Source of the DNA: Naumannella halotolerans
GTDB taxonomy: Bacteria; Actinomycetota; Actinomycetes; Propionibacteriales; Propionibacteriaceae
DNA: 64,000 bases
Direction of reading: 5' to 3'
Assembly: GCF_004364645.1 (NCBI RefSeq)
Contig: NZ_SOAW01000001.1
Span: 186,001-250,000, forward strand
Numbering within the stretch: the stretch's first letter is position 1; each line of letters begins with the position of its first letter. This document shows positions 1,117-13,637 of this stretch, piece by piece. The notes under the pieces are model-generated. The model was not told where the DNA came from, did not search any database, and saw nothing but the letters and a program-made list of their open reading frames with translations. Both the position numbers and the translations under genes were made by a program.

Positions 1117-2436
1117 GTGTCATTGAGCACCGCCCACACCGCCGCAGCCGCTACGACGCGCACCATCGTCATCGACACCTCGGTGTTGTTGAGCGATCCG
1201 CACGCCATGCGTCGATTCGCCGAACACGACGTGGTCCTGCCGGTCGTCGTGATCACCGAGTTGGAGGGCAAACGCCACCATCCCGAACTCGGCTACTTCG
1301 CGCGTACCGCGCTGCGACATCTGGACGACCTGCGGATCAAGTTCGGCCGACTCGACGCCCCGGTCCCGGTGAACGAGGAGGGCGGCACCATCCATGTCGA
1401 GCTCAACCACACCGATCCGACCGTCCTGCCCAGCGGGTTCCGGCTCGGGGACAACGATTCCCGGATCCTGGCCGTCGCCCTGAACTACCGCGCCGAGGGT
1501 CACGACGTGGTGCTGGTCAGCAAGGATCTGCCGATGCGGGTGAAGGCCTCCTCGGTCGGCCTGCCGGCCGAGGAGTACCGCGCCGATGCCGCCATCGAGA
1601 CCGGGTACACCGGGATGGCCGAACTCGAGGTCGATGCGGGTGTGGTCGACCGGTTGTACGCCGACCAGGTGATCGATCTCGACGAGGCTCGCGACATCCC
1701 CTGCCATTCCGGGGTGGTGCTGCTCGGCGGCGGTTCCTCCGCGCTGGCCCGGGTCACCCCGGACAAGCAACTGCGTCTGATCAACACCGACCGCGACGCA
1801 TTCGGGCTGCACGGTCGCTCGGCCGAGCAGCGAGTCGCCCTGGACCTGTTGCTGGATCCGACGATCGGTGTGGTCTCCCTCGGCGGTCGTGCGGGTACGG
1901 GCAAATCCGCCCTCGCCCTGTGCGCCGGGTTGGAGTCGGTGCTGGAGCGGCGTCAACACTCCAAGGTGATCGTCTTCCGCCCGCTGTACGCCGTCGGCGG
2001 TCAGGAGCTGGGATACCTGCCCGGTTCGGAGAGCGAGAAGATGGGGCCGTGGGCGCAGGCGGTCTTCGACACCCTGAGCGCGGTCACCGACAAGAACGTG
2101 ATCGACGAGGTGGTCGACCGGGACCTGCTGGAGGTGCTGCCGTTGACCCATATCCGTGGCCGCTCCCTGCACGATGCCTTCGTGATCGTCGACGAGGCGC
2201 AGTCGTTGGAACGCAATGTGCTGCTGACCGTGCTCAGCCGGGTCGGTCAGGGCTCGCGGGTGGTCCTCACCCACGACGTCGCCCAGCGGGACAACCTGCG
2301 GGTCGGCCGGCACGACGGCGTGGTGGCCGTGGTGGAGAAGCTGAAGGGGCACCCGCTGTTCTCCCATGTCACCCTCACCCGCTCCGAGCGTTCGCCGATC
2401 GCGGCGCTGGTCACCGAGATGCTGGAAGGTGAGTGA
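1117..2436 (+). CDS. phoH: PIN domain-PhoH ATPase fusion (PhoH2-type)
   Basis: Predicted RNA helicase-RNase. The N-terminal ~150 residues are a PIN nuclease domain starting with the [10 protein letters not shown] strand (first catalytic Asp) and containing the acidic GDNDSRILA segment. The C-terminal PhoH ATPase has Walker [11 protein letters not shown] (about residues 255-264) and Walker [10 protein letters not shown]. The 439-residue length is normal for PhoH2. The GTG start at 1117 is preceded by CGAGGAC. It is preceded by a hairpin and a possible leader ORF. PhoH2 proteins are known as sequence-specific RNA-unwinding ribonucleases in mycobacteria; the target here is unknown. It converges on the membrane protein gene at 2454. 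Confidence 0.92.
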
Positions 2437-2453
2437 TCATCGCATCCTGATGG

Positions 2454-4160
2454 TCACAACTTCGCGGTGAGCACCAGCTCGTGCTCGGGATGCGCGGTCT
2501 CCACGACGGCGTCGGCCTCGCCCATGGCGAGCAGGCCGACGACCACCGCCGGGGCGACCGCGTAGCCGATCACCGCATCACCGGCCTCGGCCAGTTGGCC
2601 CAGGTCCAAGGCCATGGCCATGGATCCCGAGCCGTGGGCGACCAGCGCGGTCATCGTCGCCGCCCACATGGCATAGGCCAGGAAGAGCAGCAGGCGTGGG
2701 GTTCTGGGCAGCCGCGGGGAATCCCGGCGGGTGAATTCGGCCTCGGTCAACAGCAACCAGACCAGACCGATCAGCAGTACCGCCAGTTGTGAGCTGCCCA
2801 CCAACGATTCCAACGGCTCGGCCACGTAGATCCGGTAGGGGGAGATCAACAACACCAGCAGAGCCAGCGCCAGGACGAACCATCGCCGGTCGGTGAAGCC
2901 CGATCGCCCCCATCGCGGCAGGGCCAGCGCGACCGCGATCACCGCCAGTGCCGCTGAGCCGACGGCACCGCTCAGCGAGGGCAGCTCAGCCAGGATGCGG
3001 ATGCCGGCGAAGGCTGCCATCACCGCGATCGCGGCCGCCAGCACCGCGGCGGCTGCATCCGCACGCCGGATCGCCTGCACCCCGATGATCACCGCTCCGG
3101 TCAGCAGCACACCGTCGGCGAGCACCCCGGAGCCGAGCGGCAGGGTGAACCACAGGCTGTCGACCATGTTGAGCAGACCCCAACTGCCCAGCAGCAGACC
3201 GAAGAGCATCCCGCGATCGGCCAGGGACTGGGTGATCCGCAGTGGTTGCGGGGCAGAGGCCCCTCGTCGAGCGGCCAGCGACATCGCAGCCCAACAGGCA
3301 CCGATGCTGATCAGCATGTGGCCGATCGTCAGTGCCGTCGCCGATCCGCCGATCCGCAAGCCGGTGGAGACCCCCAACCCGACCACCGGCACGGCCAGCA
3401 ATCCGGTGACGACCGGCCAGATCCGGGCCTCGGTCAGGTCGCGCAGCGCGGTGAACGTGTAGACGCCGAGATTGACCGCCACCTGGGCGAACGTCGTCCC
3501 GGCCGCAACCGCCAGCGGTACCGAGACCGGGATCAGCAGGGCCGCCACCATGGTCAGCGCGTCCGATCCCAGCACCGAGGCCCGGGTGCTGATCAGTGAT
3601 GGTGCCAGCTGGGTACCCGCCAGGCCCAGCGTGGCCAGGATGGTGGTCGACCACCGAAGCTCCCCACGGGTGCCGGTGATCGTGGCCACCAGCATCAGGA
3701 TCGCCCCCACGGTGATGCTGATCAAGCTCAGCGCAGCGCTCAGCAGGTTGCCGCCGTCCAGCACGGCGAAGACGCCGACCAGCCAGGTGACGACACTCAC
3801 CACCAGCAGCACCAGCCAGCAGCCGATCCGCCAGGCCCAGCCGAGACCGAGGGAGGCCAAGTAGGTGAGGAGCATCGTGAACCAGTAGCCCAGCGCGACC
3901 GGAAGATCGGCGGTCCGAGCGATGTCGAAACGATTCACCGGCGTGGTCCGGTCCACCACCACGGCCGAGACCAGAACGGTGATGATCAACACCGCGTACA
4001 TCAGATAGGCGCCGACGATCACACTCGGCAACGGTCGCCGCCAACCGCGCGGATCGACATGCCCGTCACGGACCGGGACGACCAGGGTTTCCCGCAACGC
4101 AACCACAGCGACTCGACCGGGTACGCGCAAGGAGGGGACAGCCACGGGACCACTATGCAC
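2454..4160 (-). CDS. Polytopic membrane protein of unknown function
   Basis: A 568-residue hydrophobic protein with roughly 14-16 predicted transmembrane helices separated by very short loops, with Arg-rich turns such as RRADA and TRRDSPRLPR. No transporter signature, nucleotide-binding loop or catalytic motif is visible. The start is a GTG at 4160 with GGGGG about 10 nt upstream; an internal GTG at 4148 is possible. It is transcribed towards phoH with an 18-bp gap. The regular hydrophobic helices and normal codon use support a real gene; the function is not recognised. Confidence 0.75.
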   Translation of the reverse strand: MHSGPVAVPSLRVPGRVAVVALRETLVVPVRDGHVDPRGWRRPLPSVIVGAYLMYAVLIITVLVSAVVVDRTTPVNRFDIARTADLPVALGYWFTMLLTYLASLGLGWAWRIGCWLVLLVVSVVTWLVGVFAVLDGGNLLSAALSLISITVGAILMLVATITGTRGELRWSTTILATLGLAGTQLAPSLISTRASVLGSDALTMVAALLIPVSVPLAVAAGTTFAQVAVNLGVYTFTALRDLTEARIWPVVTGLLAVPVVGLGVSTGLRIGGSATALTIGHMLISIGACWAAMSLAARRGASAPQPLRITQSLADRGMLFGLLLGSWGLLNMVDSLWFTLPLGSGVLADGVLLTGAVIIGVQAIRRADAAAAVLAAAIAVMAAFAGIRILAELPSLSGAVGSAALAVIAVALALPRWGRSGFTDRRWFVLALALLVLLISPYRIYVAEPLESLVGSSQLAVLLIGLVWLLLTEAEFTRRDSPRLPRTPRLLLFLAYAMWAATMTALVAHGSGSMAMALDLGQLAEAGDAVIGYAVAPAVVVGLLAMGEADAVVETAHPEHELVLTAKL

Positions 4161-4288
4161 AGGCGAGGTTTCCCCCGACCAGTTCGGGGCTGCGCCGGCG
4201 GCTCGTTCCCGGACCGGGGCGACTCGCCGAGAGCCCGACGGCGACGGCGCCGGACGTCGACGGCACCGGAGTGGACGGTGCCGCCTGA

Positions 4289-4813
4289 TCAGTCGGTACG
4301 GATCAGCCGGCGCATCGCCATGTTGGCCCAGGTAGGGCCGGAATCGGCATCGATCCCCTCATCGACGAAACCGTGTCGCTGGTAGAACTCGACCGCCCGG
4401 CGGTTGCTCGCGAACACCCACAGATAGGCCCGGTCGGTTCCCAGGGCCCGCTGCAGCATCGCCTGGCCGAGGCCTCGTCCCTGGGCGCGGGGCAGTAGAT
4501 AGAGCTTGATCAACTGGTGCTCGACCCGCGGGGCGGGGAAACCGAGTTCGATCTCCCAGCCCTGCGGTCCGGGCCCGGTCTCGGCCACCCCGAGCGGGCC
4601 CTCGGCATCCTCGGCCAGCCACAGCGCGTACCGAGGGTCGGCCAGGGCAGCGGTGGCCTCGGCCAGTTGCTCGGCTGTCTCACTGCGGCGCAGGGAGGCG
4701 AACTCGGGGCCGAAGTCGTAGGTGGCGATGGTGGCCTCGATCAGCGTCTCCACCCAGACGGTGACATCAGCGAGCCGGGCACGACGGATGGTCGTACCCG
4801 GCTCGGTGTGCAC
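4289..4813 (-). CDS. GNAT family N-acetyltransferase
   Basis: Transfers an acetyl group from acetyl-CoA to an amine of an unknown substrate. The 174-residue product starts TTIRRARLADV, typical of the GNAT N-terminus, and has the acetyl-CoA loop QGRGLGQAM followed by the LWVFASNRRAVEFYQRHGF segment of motif B. The start is uncertain: the GTG at 4813 lies 20 bp downstream of the fumarase stop and has a weak ribosome site, so translation probably depends on coupling to fumC. No ATG is available in frame. Confidence 0.85.
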   Translation of the reverse strand: MHTEPGTTIRRARLADVTVWVETLIEATIATYDFGPEFASLRRSETAEQLAEATAALADPRYALWLAEDAEGPLGVAETGPGPQGWEIELGFPAPRVEHQLIKLYLLPRAQGRGLGQAMLQRALGTDRAYLWVFASNRRAVEFYQRHGFVDEGIDADSGPTWANMAMRRLIRTD

Positions 4814-4833
4814 CGCGGGAGGGTGTTCGCCGC

Positions 4834-6240
4834 TCAGCTCGGCCGCCTGGTCATCGCCAGCACGTCGAGTGCGGTGTCGAGCTGCTCCTCGGTCAGCAGG
4901 CCGTCGCTGACGTACCCACGCTCGACCACGACCTGACGGATCTTCTTGTTCTCCTTCAGCGCCTGCTTCGCCACCGCGGCCGCGTTCTCGTACCCGATGT
5001 ACTTGTTCAACGGGGTGACGATGGACGGCGAGGACTCGGCGAGATGGGTGCAGTGCTCGACATGGGCGGTGATGCCATCGACACACCGGTCGGCCAGCAG
5101 TCGCGAGACCGCCGACAGCAGCCGGATCGATTCCAGGACGTTGCGCGCCATCATCGGCAACATCACGTTCAGCTCGAAGTTGCCCGTGGTGCCGGCGAAG
5201 CCGACCGCTGCGTCGTTGCCGATCACCTGCGCGCCGACCTGGATGGTCGCCTCACACATCACCGGGTTCACCTTGCCCGGCATGATCGACGAACCGGGCT
5301 GCAGATCCGGCAGCGCGATCTCGCCGAGACCGGCCCGGGGTCCTGAGCCCATCCAGCGTAGGTCGTTGGCGATCTTGACCAGGGAGACGGCGATGGTACG
5401 CAACACCCCGGAGGCCTCCACCAGACCATCGCGTGCACCCTGGGCCTCGAAATGATCCTTGGCCTCGGTCAGCGGAAGACCGGTCTCGTCGGCGATCGTG
5501 GCGATCACCTTCGGCGCGAACCCGGGCGGGGTGTTGATGCCGGTGCCCACGGCGGTCCCGCCGAGCGGCAGTTCGGCGACCCGCGGGAGGGCGGCCTCGA
5601 TCCGCTCCACGCCCAGCTGGACCTGCCGGGCGTAACCGCCGAACTCCTGGCCGAGGGTGACCGGGGTGGCATCCATCAGGTGGGTACGGCCGGACTTCAC
5701 CACCTCGGCGAACTCCGTGGCCTTGCGCTGCAGCGACTCCTCCAGATGGCGCAGGGCGGGGATCAGGTGGTTGATCAACGAATCGGTGGTCGCGATGTGG
5801 ATCGCGCTGGGGAACACATCGTTGGAGGACTGGGAGGCATTGACGTCGTCGTTCGGGTGCACCGAAGGTCCGGCGTCACTGGCCAGGCTGCTGATCACCT
5901 CGTTGGCGTTCATGTTCGACGACGTGCCGGAACCGGTCTGGAAGACGTCGATCGGGAACTCCGCGTCGTACTTGCCGGCGGCGACCTCGGCAGCGGCGGC
6001 GGAGATCGCATCGGCGACATCGGCGTCCAGCACACCCAGCTCTGCATTGGCCTTGGCGGCGGCACCCTTGATCAGTCCGAGGGCACGGATCAGGGCCGGC
6101 TCGATGGGCGTACCGGAGATCGGGAAGTTCTCCACGGCTCGCTGGGTCTGGGCCTTCCACAAAGCGTTCTTCGGCACCCGGACCTCGCCCATGGTGTCGT
6201 GCTCGATGCGGTACTCCGTTGTCGGGTCGTTCTCAGTCAT
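4834..6240 (-). CDS. fumC: Class II fumarate hydratase
   Basis: Interconverts fumarate and L-malate in the citric acid cycle. From the ATG at 6240 the protein has 468 residues, the normal length for the oxygen-stable homotetrameric class II enzyme. It contains [12 protein letters not shown] (substrate binding), TVG-type active-site segment [11 protein letters not shown], and the superfamily signature [20 protein letters not shown] lies about 7-15 nt before the ATG, so independent translation is likely even though the upstream gene has no stop. The GNAT gene follows after 20 bp. Confidence 0.95.
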
Positions 6241-6927
6241 GGTTCCATTCTGCCCCTTTCCGGCGCTTCGGTGTACCCGGTGGATGGCGTAGTCGATGTG
6301 GTGTCCGTCGCGTTCGACAGCGACCTCGATCAGGTCGGTCTCGCCGAGCCGAGCCAGCCGCTCGGCCAGGTCGTCGGAGCGTTGCTGACACCAGATCGCG
6401 AGCACACCGCCGGGGTTCAGGGCGGCCACGGCTGCGGTCAGCAGGTCGGGTTCGTAAAGCTCGGCGTTGCCGGCATGGATCAGGAAGTCGGGGCCGTTGT
6501 CCACGTCGAGCCCGATCGCATCGAAGCTCCGGCCGGGCTCGGTCAGCAGGGCGCTGACATCGGTGTGCAGAAGCGTGGTTCGCGGATCGGCGCCGACTCC
6601 CGCGAGCTGCTCGGTCAGACCCTGGTGGGCCCACTCGATCAGTGGCTCCTCGATCTCGGCGATCACCAGATCGGAGAGGTCGGACTCGAGCAATCGGGCG
6701 GCGGTGAACCCCAGACCGAGACCACCGAGCAGGATCGTCGATGCCGGCAGCAGGGCCTCAGCCAGGGCTCGTTCGGACTCGACCTCGGCGGAGTCCATGG
6801 CGAATGTGCCGTTGACGATCAGTTCGTGCACCGCCCCGGTCCCCGTGCCACGGCGGCGCAGTGCGATCTCTCCCCGTTCGGTACGTGCCCGGGCGAGGGT
6901 TCGGGGTGGTTCGTACGGGTGGGTCAT
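4834..6927 (-). CDS. Spermidine-synthase-like protein reading in frame into fumarase (697-codon ORF)
   Basis: The ATG at 6927 opens a frame whose first ~229 codons encode a spermidine synthase/SAM-methyltransferase-like Rossmann protein: glycine loop LLGGLGLGF near residue 62, acidic strand IAEIEEP, and the [12 protein letters not shown] segment. Such actinobacterial proteins usually end shortly after the YAIHRVHR strand. Here there is no stop: 10 more codons lead straight into the fumarase ATG at 6240 and on to the stop at 4834. The product is either a bifunctional fusion or a stop-less cistron ending in fumC, with fumC also started internally. The actual polyamine-synthase activity of the family is unproven. 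Confidence 0.6.
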
Positions 6928-7049
6928 GGTGCGGGACTGTTCGCCTCGGATCGGGGAGCGGTGTGCTGTACGGGTCCACGGTAACCGTCGTCGTCGGCGA
7001 CCCGTCGTGGCGGTTTGGACCAGCCTGTGCGATCTGTGACCATGGGGCG

Positions 7050-7628
7050 GTGAGTGACCAGCCGGAGCCCGAGGGACCGCCACCGTCGCACGGCGGATTG
7101 AAGAAGGCGCGCCCCACCGACATGGTCTGGTCGCTGCTGATCATCGCCATTCCGCTGGTGATCATCACCTTCCTGTTCACCCGCGGTGAGACGCCGGTGA
7201 AGGAGGTGGACTGGCAGGCCCCGTTGGCGCAGGCCCGGTCCGAGGTCGACTGGCCGGTGCTGGCGCCGGAAGGGTTGCCGGACTCCTGGGTGCCGATCCG
7301 GGTCAGTTGGACGCCCGAGGGCTCGCCCGGTCTGAACAGCCAGCCCTCGCCGCGAAACCAGTGGCGGCTGGGCTTCCTCGATCCGTCACAGATCTACATC
7401 GAACTGAACCAGGGCGATGCCGAGATCGACGAGTTCATCGCCGAGACCACTCGCGAAGGCCTGCCGGACGGGATCAGCCAGATCGGTGAGGACACCTGGG
7501 ACCGGTTGGTGACCGCCGATGAACGTACCCGGGCGCTGGTCTTGCGTACCTCGGAGGTGACCACCGTGGTGGTCGGGGACACCGACTACTCCGAGCTCGA
7601 GACCTACGTCACGGTCCTCGAGGACTGA
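7050..7628 (+). CDS. DUF4245 single-pass membrane protein
   Basis: A 192-residue protein with one transmembrane helix (about residues 28-46, [14 protein letters not shown]) and an extracytoplasmic domain carrying the family's [13 protein letters not shown] and SWTPEG motifs. The function is unknown. In many actinobacteria DUF4245 genes lie next to fumarase or glpX, and here it is divergent from the methyltransferase-fumarase unit. GTG at 7050 was chosen because it places the basic cytoplasmic tail correctly before the helix. Confidence 0.8.
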
Positions 7629-9128: not shown

Positions 9129-10538
9129 TCAGTGACGAGCGCCGGCACCGGCCGTGGCGGGTTCGACGCCATCGACGTCGTCGTCGTTGAACGGCAGCTC
9201 ACCGCGCGGAGCGTCGTACAGGGACTGATCGAGGATGCCCTCGCGCTTGGCGACGATGGTCGGCACCAAGGCCTGGCCGGTGACGTTCAGCGCGGTCCGT
9301 CCCATGTCGACGATCGGCTCGATCGCCAGCAGCAGGCCAACGCCCTCCAACGGCAGGCCCAGGGTGGACAGGGTCAGGGTCAACATCACCGTGGCGCCGG
9401 TCGTACCGGCCGTGGCCGCCGAACCGATCACCGAGACGAAGACGATCAGCACGTACTGCACGAAGGTCAGCTCGATGCCGAAGAACTGGGCGACGAAGAT
9501 CGCGGCGATCGCCGGGTAGATGGCCGCACAACCGTCCATCTTGGTCACCGCACCGAGCGGTACGGCGAACGAGGCGTAGGAGCTCGGTACGCCCAGGTTC
9601 CGCTCGGTCACCCGCTGGGTCAGCGGCATCGTGCCGACCGAGGAACGGGAGACGAAGCCGAGCTGGGTGGCCGGCCAGACCCCGGAGAAGAACTGGCGGA
9701 TGCTCAGTCCGTTCGCCTTCACCAGGGCCGGGTAGACCACCAGGTAGACGATCGCCATCGCCGCGTACATGCAGATCACGAACACGCCCAGTGAACCCAG
9801 GGCATCCCAGCCGTAGGTGGCGACTGCCTTCGCGATCAGGGCCAGGGTGCCGATCGGCGCGAGACGGATGATCCACCAGAGGATCTTCTGGATGATCTCC
9901 AGCAGCGAACGGGTGACGGCGATGAACGGATCGGCCTTCTTGCCGATCAGCATCGCCGCGATGCCGACGGCGATCGCGATCACCAGGATCTGCAGGACGT
10001 TGAAGGTGATGTCGGCCTCGATGTCACCGGAGGAGGACTGACTGGCATCGGCGGTCAGGCCGAGGAAGTTCGCCGGCACCAGGGAGTCCAGGAAACCGAG
10101 CCAGGACCCCTGGGTGGAGGATTCGGCTGCGTTCTCCGCACTGACGCTGGTACGTGAACCGGGTTGACCGATCAGACCGGTGGCGATACCGATCAGTACC
10201 GAGATGAAGGCGGTGATGGCGAACCACAACAAGGTGCGCCACGCCAGCCGGGCGGCATTGGTGACCTCCCGCAGGTTCGCGATCGAGGTGACGATCGCGG
10301 TGAACACCAGCGGTACGACCGCAGCGGTCAGCAAGGAGACGTAGACGCTACCCACCTCAGTGACGGTGGTGGTCAGCCAGTTCGGGTCGTCCTCGGTGCC
10401 GCCCAGGCCGCGGGCGATGAACCCGACCCCGAGGCCCAGGACGAGGGCTGCGAGGATCTGGTTGCCGAAGGAGGTCATCCACGAGGGGAGGCGTCGCCTC
10501 CGGTGCGGTTCGGATGTGGGGGTCGCCGCGGTTGTCAT
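9129..10538 (-). CDS. Dicarboxylate/amino acid:cation symporter (DAACS family)
   Basis: A 469-residue sodium- or proton-coupled carrier of the GltP/DctA family. The serine-rich reentrant loop SRSSVGTMP, the MDGCAAIYP segment of helix 7 and the substrate-binding NVTGQALVP in helix 8 are all present. Likely substrates are glutamate, aspartate or C4-dicarboxylates, which would match an Asp/Glu-racemase-rich neighbourhood. The ATG at 10538 follows a good AAGGAG. The C-terminal tail (FNDDDVDGVEP) is acidic. The preceding 159 bp to the divergent racemase gene hold both promoters, but no copy of the island operator. Confidence 0.9.
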   Translation of the reverse strand: MTTAATPTSEPHRRRRLPSWMTSFGNQILAALVLGLGVGFIARGLGGTEDDPNWLTTTVTEVGSVYVSLLTAAVVPLVFTAIVTSIANLREVTNAARLAWRTLLWFAITAFISVLIGIATGLIGQPGSRTSVSAENAAESSTQGSWLGFLDSLVPANFLGLTADASQSSSGDIEADITFNVLQILVIAIAVGIAAMLIGKKADPFIAVTRSLLEIIQKILWWIIRLAPIGTLALIAKAVATYGWDALGSLGVFVICMYAAMAIVYLVVYPALVKANGLSIRQFFSGVWPATQLGFVSRSSVGTMPLTQRVTERNLGVPSSYASFAVPLGAVTKMDGCAAIYPAIAAIFVAQFFGIELTFVQYVLIVFVSVIGSAATAGTTGATVMLTLTLSTLGLPLEGVGLLLAIEPIVDMGRTALNVTGQALVPTIVAKREGILDQSLYDAPRGELPFNDDDVDGVEPATAGAGARH

Positions 10539-10697
10539 TGGAGGCTCCTTCGGTACGTGCGGGAGGCGAAGTGTTCAGGAAGGGTCCGCGACCGGGCGGT
10601 CGTTCGGGCCGACCCCGGGTGAACACGACCCGCCGGGTCGACTATTCCCGCGGCGGAACCGAAAATGGTGGTCAGTCCGACGGCAGGGGAGTCTTTG

Positions 10698-11384
10698 ATG
10701 AGGATCGGTGTGATCAATCCACACGACATGGCTCTGGATGCCGAGTTGTGGCGGTGGGTCCCGGTGGGGGTTTCGCTGCACTGCACGCGGTTGCCACCGC
10801 ACGGGGACAAGGTGGACCTGTCGATGGTCGAAGGATTGTCCGACCCGGCCGAGCTGGCCGCCGCCGCCCGCAGCATCGCGCAGTTGCGGCCCGATGCCTA
10901 TGCCTACGCCTGCACCTCGGGGAGCTTTGTCGGCGGAGTGGCCGCCGAGGAGAGGATCAGTCGGACCATCGCCGTGGCGGGAGGGGCGCCGGCCGTCACC
11001 ACCTCGGGCGCACTGGTGAAAGCACTGTCGGAACTCGGTGTACAGAAGATCTCGGTGGCGACGCCGTACATCGCTCAGGTCACCGCGCGGTTGGTCGATT
11101 TCCTCGCCGAGACCGGTGTGCAGGTGGTCCGTTCGGCCGGGCTCGGCCGAGACCGGGGGATCGAGACGATCCCGGCCCGGGAGACCGCCGAGTTGGTGCG
11201 GGCGGTGGACGATCCCGACTCCGAGGCGATCTTCCTCAGTTGTACGAATCTGCCGACGATCGATGTCGTCGACGAACTCCGCGCCGAATTGGGCAAACCG
11301 GTGATCAGCGCGAACCAGGTCACCTTGTGGGCTGCCCTGCGGGCCGCCGGGGCGTCAGCCGAACTGACCGGCGTACCCGTCTGA
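10698..11384 (+). CDS. Asp/Glu racemase superfamily (maleate isomerase/EutA-like)
   Basis: A 228-residue protein of the Asp/Glu racemase fold, closest in motif pattern to maleate cis-trans isomerase, arylmalonate decarboxylase and EutA of ectoine clusters. Both catalytic cysteines are visible: YACTSGSF near residue 75 and LSCTNLPT near residue 183. The ending ISANQVTLWAALR is typical of the group. ATG 10698 has AGGGGAG 6 nt upstream. It is divergent from the symporter and lies next to a second paralogue on the other strand. Substrate unknown. Confidence 0.8.
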   Translation: MRIGVINPHDMALDAELWRWVPVGVSLHCTRLPPHGDKVDLSMVEGLSDPAELAAAARSIAQLRPDAYAYACTSGSFVGGVAAEERISRTIAVAGGAPAVTTSGALVKALSELGVQKISVATPYIAQVTARLVDFLAETGVQVVRSAGLGRDRGIETIPARETAELVRAVDDPDSEAIFLSCTNLPTIDVVDELRAELGKPVISANQVTLWAALRAAGASAELTGVPV

Positions 11385-11426
11385 CGCTCTACGCGGATCG
11401 TTCGATCGAGGAGACGGCCAGCCCGG

Positions 11427-12149
11427 TCAGGCTCGGAACAGACTGCCCACTCCGTCGGCGATCGGTGATCGGCCGAGCAGGCGCAGGCCCGACCAGACGC
11501 TGACCTGGTTCGCGGTGAGTACCGGCCGGCCGGCATCGGCCTCCAGCTGCGGCAACAGCCCGGCGGTGTGTAGGGCCGTGTCCGGGACCACGACCACATC
11601 GGCATCAAGGGGGCCGAGGTCGTCGACCATCTGACGGATCCGGTCGGCCGACCAGCGCCCCGCATCCTCACCGGACGGGACGTCGGAGCTCGCGGTGACC
11701 GCGACCTCGAATCCCGCTTCGGTGAGCAGTCCACTCAGGCAGCGGCTGACCGGTTCGGGGTAGCTGGCGGCGATCGCCACCCGACGGGCATCCAGGTGGT
11801 GCAAGGCGTCGACGAAGGCAAGGCTGGTGGAGGTGGCCGGTACGCCGGCCGCGTGCGCGAGTCGGGCCGCCTGGTCCCGGGCGCCCTCGAGGCCGTCGAC
11901 GAAGCTGCCGGAGGTGCAGGCCCAGACGATCGCCGCGACCCCCGCGGCAACCGCTGCCTTCGCGGTCGGGTGCAGTTGGTCGTCGGCGCCCAGTGCGCGC
12001 AGGGCCGCCATCTCGTGGTCGGTCGGTCCGGCCCAGGTGTGGCGTACCTCGATCGGTTCGGTGATCCCATGGCGCCGTAGATCGGCACTCCAGGCCACGA
12101 AATCGTCCTCGGCGCTGTGGCCGGGGTAGAGCATGGTGACTCCTGCCAT
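11427..12149 (-). CDS. Asp/Glu racemase superfamily paralogue lacking the second cysteine
   Basis: A 240-residue paralogue of the neighbouring gene, with WACTSGSF (first cysteine, near residue 79) and the conserved LTANQVSVWSGLR end. At the place of the second catalytic cysteine it reads VVVPDTALHT, so a two-base racemase or isomerase mechanism looks unlikely. This is the mirror image of arylmalonate decarboxylase, which keeps only the second cysteine. The ATG at 12149 faces the amidase gene, and the island operator lies in the 48-bp gap between the two starts. An internal ATG at 12134 is possible. Confidence 0.75.
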   Translation of the reverse strand: MAGVTMLYPGHSAEDDFVAWSADLRRHGITEPIEVRHTWAGPTDHEMAALRALGADDQLHPTAKAAVAAGVAAIVWACTSGSFVDGLEGARDQAARLAHAAGVPATSTSLAFVDALHHLDARRVAIAASYPEPVSRCLSGLLTEAGFEVAVTASSDVPSGEDAGRWSADRIRQMVDDLGPLDADVVVVPDTALHTAGLLPQLEADAGRPVLTANQVSVWSGLRLLGRSPIADGVGSLFRA

Positions 12150-12172
12150 GGGGCCAGTCTGCGGGATCAGTT

Positions 12173-12186
12173 GATTGTTGACAATC
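12173..12186. promoter_or_regulatory. Island operator copy 1
   Basis: GATTGT-TG-ACAATC is a perfect palindrome 12 bp before the amidase ATG and 24 bp before the divergent racemase-like start. The same 14-bp motif recurs at 14809 and, with centre CA, at 22806. The form TTGT-NN-ACAA fits known FadR-family sites, so the FadR-type protein at 14131 is the likely ligand. Confidence 0.75.
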
Positions 12187-12197
12187 TTCTCGACACG

Positions 12198-13637
12198 ATG
12201 GGCTCCATGACTCCTGGCGACCCACCCGCCCATGACAGTCGTTGGCTCGGAGCGACCGAGTTGACTCACGCCTACGCCGACGGACTCGACCCGACCGAGG
12301 TCGCGAGCCTGCTGCTGGAGCTGGCCGAGGCCGAGCCCACCAACGCCTTCTGCCTGCTCGACCCCGAGACCACCCTCGAACAGGCACGCGCATCCGCCGA
12401 CCGATGGCGGGCCGGGGAACAACGCGGACCGCTCGACGGGGTGCCGATGACGATCAAGGACCTGATCCTCACCCGGGGGTGGCCGACCTTGCGCGGATCG
12501 AACCTGATTCGGCCCGATTCCGACCCCTGGCAGGTCGACGCACCGGCGGTGGCCCGGCTCCGGGAAGCCGGCGCGGTCCTGCTGGGCAAGGTCGCCACTC
12601 CCGAGTTCGGTTGGAAGGGGGTCGCCGACAGTCCTCGTACCGGGATCAGCACCAACCCCTGGGACACCTCGCGTACCTGTGGCGGCTCGTCCGGTGGCTC
12701 GGCCTCCGCGGTTGCCCAGGGGCTCGGCGTCGGATCGGTGGGCACCGATGGTGGTGGATCGGTACGGATCCCCGGTGGCTTCTGCGGCGTGGTCGCGTTC
12801 AAGCCCACGTACGGTCGGATCCCGCTGTGGCCGGCCAGCCCCTACGGCACCTTGGCCCACGCTGGCCCGATGACCCGTACCGTCGCCGATGCCGCGATCA
12901 TGCTCGACGTCCTGGCCGGACCGGATGCGCGGGACTGGTCGGCTCTGCCTCCGCCCGTCGGTTCCTTCGCCGAGGCGGCCGGGGCCGCCGACGTCGCCGG
13001 TCTACGGATCGCCTGGAGTCCCGATCTCGGGTACGGCGTGAACGACCCGCAGGTGCTGGAGACGGTGCAGCGGGCCGTTGCTGCCCTGGCCGATGCCGGT
13101 GCTGTGGTCGAGCAGGTGGACCTGCAACTCGGCGACCCGGTCTGGGCGTACCACACCCTGTGGTTCGCCGGTGCCCTCGCCGTGGTGAATGGGTACGGGC
13201 CGGGCGCGATGGAACGGATCGATCCGAATCTGGCCGACGCGATCGCACGGTACGGCCACACCAGCTCCCAGGACTACCTGCGGGCGGTCGACTGTCGGAT
13301 GGCGCTGGGGCAACGGTTCGGGGCGCTGCACGAGACCTATGACGTGTTGCTCACCCCGACCCTGCCCGGGGTCGCCTTCGAGGCCGGGGTCGACGTACCG
13401 GCCGGATCGGCGGTCCGGGACTGGACCTCCTGGACGCCGTACAGCTACCCGTTCAACCTGACCCAGCAACCGGCGATCACGGTACCTTGCGGTGTGGTCG
13501 ACGGGCTGCCGGTGGGGTTGCAGGTGGTCGGTCCCCGGCACGGTGATGCGACCGTCGTGCGGGTTGCGGCCGCCTATGAGCAGATCGGTGGTTGGGAAGG
13601 TCTCGGGGGAACGACGAAAGGGAGTGGGCAGGGATGA
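12198..13637 (+). CDS. Amidase signature (AS) family amidase
   Basis: Hydrolyses an amide or aryl-amide bond. The 479-residue protein has the full Ser-cisSer-Lys triad of the amidase signature family: Lys about 87 in GVPMTIKDL, the cis-Ser in TCGGSSGGSAS (about 164-165), and the nucleophile Ser about 188 in GTDGGGSVRIP. Start ATG 12198 is the first after the operator; a second in-frame ATG lies at 12207. It leads a three-gene operon with DUF3830 and the FadR regulator, linked by ATGA and GTGA overlaps. The substrate is not known; a role in opening an amide intermediate of the island pathway is inference. Confidence 0.9.
   Translation: MGSMTPGDPPAHDSRWLGATELTHAYADGLDPTEVASLLLELAEAEPTNAFCLLDPETTLEQARASADRWRAGEQRGPLDGVPMTIKDLILTRGWPTLRGSNLIRPDSDPWQVDAPAVARLREAGAVLLGKVATPEFGWKGVADSPRTGISTNPWDTSRTCGGSSGGSASAVAQGLGVGSVGTDGGGSVRIPGGFCGVVAFKPTYGRIPLWPASPYGTLAHAGPMTRTVADAAIMLDVLAGPDARDWSALPPPVGSFAEAAGAADVAGLRIAWSPDLGYGVNDPQVLETVQRAVAALADAGAVVEQVDLQLGDPVWAYHTLWFAGALAVVNGYGPGAMERIDPNLADAIARYGHTSSQDYLRAVDCRMALGQRFGALHETYDVLLTPTLPGVAFEAGVDVPAGSAVRDWTSWTPYSYPFNLTQQPAITVPCGVVDGLPVGLQVVGPRHGDATVVRVAAAYEQIGGWEGLGGTTKGSGQG

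Follow-up and report, generated by a model that had tools for sequence, protein, structure and literature searches.

A spermidine-synthase-like gene merged in frame with the fumarase gene of Naumannella halotolerans, probably a tolerated fusion with a leaderless internal start

We found that a spermidine-synthase-like gene and the fumarase gene fumC of Naumannella halotolerans form one reading frame, with no internal stop codon between positions 6927 and 4834 (minus strand) of the window, the 64,000-nucleotide stretch of DNA that was analysed. In terms of sequence, the case comprises the merged frame, a second fusion in another genus, a common −10-like element and intact domains. Most likely, the fusion is a tolerated accident of two genes that abut each other. 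The fumarase very probably keeps a start signal of its own, and the change thus looks tolerated rather than essential.

The fused reading frame and its two domains

Translation of the minus strand from 6927 to 4834 gives 697 residues, and the sole stop is the terminal TGA at 4836–4834. A complete domain with the spermidine synthase fold, a fold of SAM-dependent transferases (229 aa; 6241..6927, minus strand, 229 codons without a stop of its own), leads in the same frame into a class II fumarase that is likewise complete (468 aa and the stop; 4834..6240, minus strand, with the ATG at 6240–6238). The linker [10 protein letters not shown] (6241..6270, minus strand) is the site of the stop in the sister species L005. 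The earlier note on this DNA had described two complete domains joined without a stop, and this description is borne out: the upstream domain, there called methyltransferase-like, aligns end to end with 35 relatives, and FumC, counted without its first Met, aligns to solved fumarases over residues 4–464 of 467.

In GC-rich DNA the length of an open frame alone is weak evidence of a fusion. The frame carrying the fusion stays open for 768 codons in its own genome, and the unfused fumC frames of the genomes G092 and G070 stay open for 766 and 703 codons, despite which the upstream neighbour in both terminates in a stop. The weight of the evidence is that both genes lie in one shared frame that no stop interrupts at the junction. 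In either of the two remaining frames of the window, a stop occurs in the first bases of fumC (aTGA or acTGAg).

Profile searches against Pfam and NCBIfam gave no confident name for the upstream half. Its match to Pfam Spermine_synth (PF01564) is weak, with a score of 17.3 below the gathering score of 22.9, and it reaches 20.3 with NCBIfam PRK00811, where the cut-off is 260. PF01564 matches 13 of 36 members of the upstream family at an E limit of 0.01; with the same limit, it found nothing in the six frames of the N. halotolerans genome. A structure modelled from 36 aligned sequences reaches a mean pLDDT of 94.7. The solved structures ranked best for this model are spermidine synthases (Foldseek TM 0.76 to 6o64_A; Z 22.9 over 213 residues at 3.1 A to 6o64_E), so that the domain is predicted to have the spermidine synthase fold. 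At the position of the DxxD that binds putrescine in SpeE, the alignments put a conserved LDVDNGP, and the solved SpeE proteins carry another motif there. Judged from the model, the domain is best called spermidine-synthase-like.

For the downstream half, the closest solved relatives are fumarases and not aspartases, with near full-length matches of 673 bits to 3qbp and 665 bits to 4adl against 394 bits for the best aspartase (1j3u). The protein also contains the loop [11 protein letters not shown], which we take to be diagnostic of class II fumarases. It scores 560 with the NCBIfam model TIGR00979 (fumC_II), below the naming threshold of 664.75, and 550 with PRK12273, a broad aspartate ammonia-lyase subfamily model, above the cut-off of 510; the three relatives tested behaved alike with both models. 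The name class II fumarase is thus given by similarity to solved fumarases, not by the NCBIfam cut-off. Some solved FumC chains have an N-terminal extension (residue 6 of the query corresponds to residue 28 of 5f91 and 29 of 4adl, against residue 7 of 6s43), and an addition at this end therefore need not block folding.

No second close copy of FumC was found in the N. halotolerans genome, where the next match is 28% identical over a part only. A search of the same genome for class I fumarase with Pfam Fumerase (PF05681), the sole class I model used, gave no match, while five of 14 control genomes matched. With neither another close FumC nor a PF05681 match, the fumarase of this genome is therefore probably supplied by the fused gene.

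The fused frame is flanked downstream by a GNAT acetyltransferase-like frame (4292..4834, minus strand; translated as given, with a provisional start) and on the other side by a divergent DUF4245 reading frame (6861..7628, plus strand), whose domain covers residues 84–251. As the match begins only at residue 84, the true start of the latter is probably further in. Positions 1117-7628 show the order PhoH, fumC and the divergent DUF4245 gene, an order reminiscent of Rv1095–Rv1100 in Mycobacterium tuberculosis. Positions 9132-13634, at a distance of a few kb from fumC, contain a sodium:dicarboxylate symporter, two convergent genes of the arylmalonate-decarboxylase / Asp-Glu-racemase family and an amidase. 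These genes may possibly make up a small dicarboxylate or maleate pathway able to feed fumarate.

The start of fumC and its putative promoter

A −10-like hexamer, CAGAAT (6247..6252, minus strand), lies 6 nt 5' of the fumC ATG and is the proposed promoter of a leaderless fumC mRNA. For comparison, we took the nearest in-frame ATG upstream of each fumC match as the start and merged identical sequences, which left 54 distinct upstream regions; five of the 76 loci with fumC (L006, L019, L078, L086 and L151) were dropped for want of a usable upstream stretch. In 50 of the 54 regions, 6 or 7 nt separate the end of the pattern '.A...T' from the start (33 at 6 nt and 17 at 7 nt); none of the other spacings from 0 to 38 has it in more than four of 54. 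With the stricter TA...T, a spacing of 6 or 7 is found in 29 of 54. The hexamer of the window fits '.A...T', not TAnnnT, and stands where the box of a leaderless gene is expected, 6–7 nt before the start. Since the 54 regions share ancestry, they are not 54 independent observations, and the contrast between spacings is the stronger point. The element is lacking in L096, L141, L155 and L174; among the dropped loci it is visible by eye in L006, in L019, which equals L078, and in L151.

It had been claimed in the earlier note that the fumarase ATG keeps its own ribosome site. We rejected such a site, as 12 nt separate the end of the purine run AAAGGGG from the ATG and SD-like 4-mers between −16 and −5 are rare in the relatives (4 of 54 regions). 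The accompanying suggestion, that both a 697-residue fusion and free FumC could be made, stands as far as the fusion frame is concerned and is probable for free FumC; the route through a ribosome site falls, and a leaderless transcript is more likely.

Published work on actinobacterial transcripts (PMC3160421, PMC3848588, PMC3898074) includes a map of Propionibacterium acnes in which a TAnnnT box stands near −9 relative to transcript starts, a map of Mycobacterium tuberculosis with the box 7–12 bp upstream of transcript starts, and a genome survey in which a TAnnnT box about 12 bp before the start codon is the mark of a leaderless gene. Taken with these maps, the conserved −10-like box at 6–7 nt makes a leaderless fumC, with a promoter inside the upstream frame, the most probable case. 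From the sequences, fumC is thus probably made from a leaderless mRNA whose promoter lies in the end of the upstream gene.

Several relatives show other arrangements at this junction. In three Nocardioides loci (L145, L148 and L159), the upstream frame extends across the −10 box as far as a TGA that overlaps the start of fumC. In L161, L162 and L151, the upstream TAG stop forms the first three letters of the fumC box TAGnnT, so that, by its sequence, one triplet appears to double as a stop codon and as part of a promoter. An uncultured member of the Nocardioidaceae (L141:3130-3215) has a strong ribosome site, GGAGGAG, an upstream stop that overlaps the ATG (ATGA) and no −10 box; here coupled translation seems to have replaced the leaderless start.

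We consider it likely that the locus is a genuine stop-loss fusion in which free fumC comes from its own leaderless promoter and the upstream mRNA gives the 697-residue two-domain protein. A spermidine-synthase-like gene abutting fumC would have lost its stop codon and become fused to it. The gene fumC would be transcribed from its own promoter, with the −10 box within the last codons of the upstream gene, and the leaderless mRNA would begin at the fumC ATG; the upstream transcript would continue and be translated as the long protein. Constraint would act on the promoter and the fumC ATG only, not on the upstream stop, whose position could therefore shift by a few tens of bases. For the window there are three possible frames: two of them would reach a stop where fumC begins, and the third, the one found, merges the genes. 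We infer from these features leaderless transcription, translation of the fusion, tolerance rather than selection and free FumC as the main fumarase.

It is unlikely that free FumC alone is made, the upstream gene being silent or its message ending early, although the spacings tried revealed no clear promoter ahead of the upstream gene in the window. In the upstream domain, dN is well below dS, which argues against a silent gene: the pairwise values are 0.121 and 0.48 for the fused L052 against L042, and 0.352 and 0.92 for the window against L005, each an average over time both before and after fusion. A −10-like element stands before one possible start in 96 of 135 upstream genes of relatives, which also speaks against a silent gene; this count is weak, as the script was free to choose the start and had no control.

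Occurrence and origin of the fusion among relatives

Among the family genomes, the upstream gene was matched in 79 of 198; 69 of the 79 were read, giving 70 loci (G116 gave two). In 17 of these 70 Propionibacteriaceae loci, fumC is next downstream. Two of the 17 pairs are fused. The other 15 retain a stop close to where fumC starts, and this stop ends anywhere from 116 nt ahead of the fumC match to 17 nt within it; the match does not always begin at the ATG. The remaining 53 loci have no fumC in the downstream stretch covered, some of these stretches being short (277 nt in L049, 909 nt in L070).

The second fusion lies in another genus of the Propionibacteriaceae (L052, genome G097) and is 712 aa long. 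The earlier note knew of no such fusion, and this case in the same family revises that statement. Both domains are intact here as well. The linkers of the two fusions are of unequal length and unlike sequence; both fusions retain the −10-like element. A search of openly licensed PMC papers found nothing on this fusion or on stop-loss fusion.

A comparison with close relatives had been proposed in the earlier note, where a stop in relatives together with a base error in the reads would count as refutation; the first half of this holds, as the only congener compared, L005, has a stop. L005 carries a TGA 4 nt before fumC and a spacer 1 nt longer than that of the window. A spacer one base shorter, with the TGA gone, would have given the window its fused frame with an internal promoter. 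The same difference could come from an assembly or sequencing error, in which case the true gene would carry a stop like that of the sister species, with the fusion a one-base artefact. If the sequence of the window were shifted by one base, the upstream gene would terminate where fumC starts, and a one-base mistake near AAAGGGG is possible. However, the L005 TGA is itself altered in the window (AATGACC against AATGGAA), and the listed completeness and contamination of the assembly (3.47 Mb in 6 contigs, in which the region has one full match) are 100% and 0.48%. Moreover, a fusion of the same kind is present in G097, a single-contig genome of another genus listed as 100% complete. We regard an error as quite improbable.

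A FumC tree of 30 rows pairs the window with the unfused L075 as its sister (96/93), and the fused L091, which is the same place as L052 of G097, with the unfused L089 (100/99). The starred branches of the tree force two changes. With an unfused sister beside either fused gene, two separate stop losses are the simplest account of this tree; a single old fusion followed by many regained stops is less simple.

Fusion in two separate lineages, with both domains intact, would also be expected of a selected bifunctional enzyme, whose activities gain from being joined, for example by co-regulation or substrate proximity. The pair of upstream gene and fumC occurs outside the Propionibacteriaceae too: among the named loci, the best 80 of at least 582 relatives and mostly actinobacterial, 29 have fumC downstream in the stretch covered (L113 and L117 repeat L053 and L062), and none of them is fused. 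The named matches place the family of the window in the Propionibacteriaceae. The order-wide search gave matches in 248 of 391 genomes, and frames of at least 690 codons were found only in G000 and G097 among the 150 matches listed; open-frame length is a rough guide here, as it differs between searches for some genes (G080: 750 against 434). The rarity of fusion among the loci read, the stops retained in most neighbouring pairs, the many family loci without a fumC in the stretch covered, the unlike linkers and the −10-like element retained in both fusions make selection for a bifunctional enzyme very unlikely. There is likewise only a slim chance that a dual-product locus, giving the long two-domain enzyme together with free fumarase from the nested leaderless promoter, was fixed twice as useful; mixed tetramers would then put a SAM-dependent transferase on an enzyme of the TCA cycle. 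Overall, we judge the stop-loss fusion to be real, repeated and probably tolerated, with free fumarase preserved by the proposed leaderless promoter.

Implications and comparison with known systems

The two fusion events, each with an unfused sister and with a downstream promoter and start that appear fixed, offer a clean natural case of how adjacent genes merge. If a leaderless promoter protects the downstream gene, loss of the upstream stop costs little. For annotation pipelines, the locus is a caution against labelling such frames plainly as one gene or two.

In comparison with the actinobacterial class II fumarases 3qbp ('Fumarase Fum') and 4adl, the protein of the window is alike in its near full-length match (673 and 665 bits) and in the loop [11 protein letters not shown]. 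It is unlike them in its N-terminal, in-frame domain of 229 residues and in scoring below the NCBI fumC_II cut-off. The upstream domain shares with SpeE (6o64, 6qmm) its predicted fold (Z 22.9, 213 residues, 3.1 A to 6o64_E) and a weak profile match; unlike SpeE, it falls below the PF01564 and PRK00811 cut-offs and has LDVDNGP in place of the motif of the solved proteins. Neighbouring bacterial genes that are co-directional can fuse by stop loss and become merged in frame. The window resembles such fusions in general in its co-directional neighbours joined in frame, but its fumC appears to keep an internal promoter, so that fused and free forms are both possible. With actinobacterial leaderless genes, as described in the published work (TAnnnT about 12 nt before the start; PMC3160421, PMC3848588, PMC3898074), it has in common how far the −10 box stands from the start codon, whereas the box of the window lies within an upstream frame that continues into the very gene it would drive.
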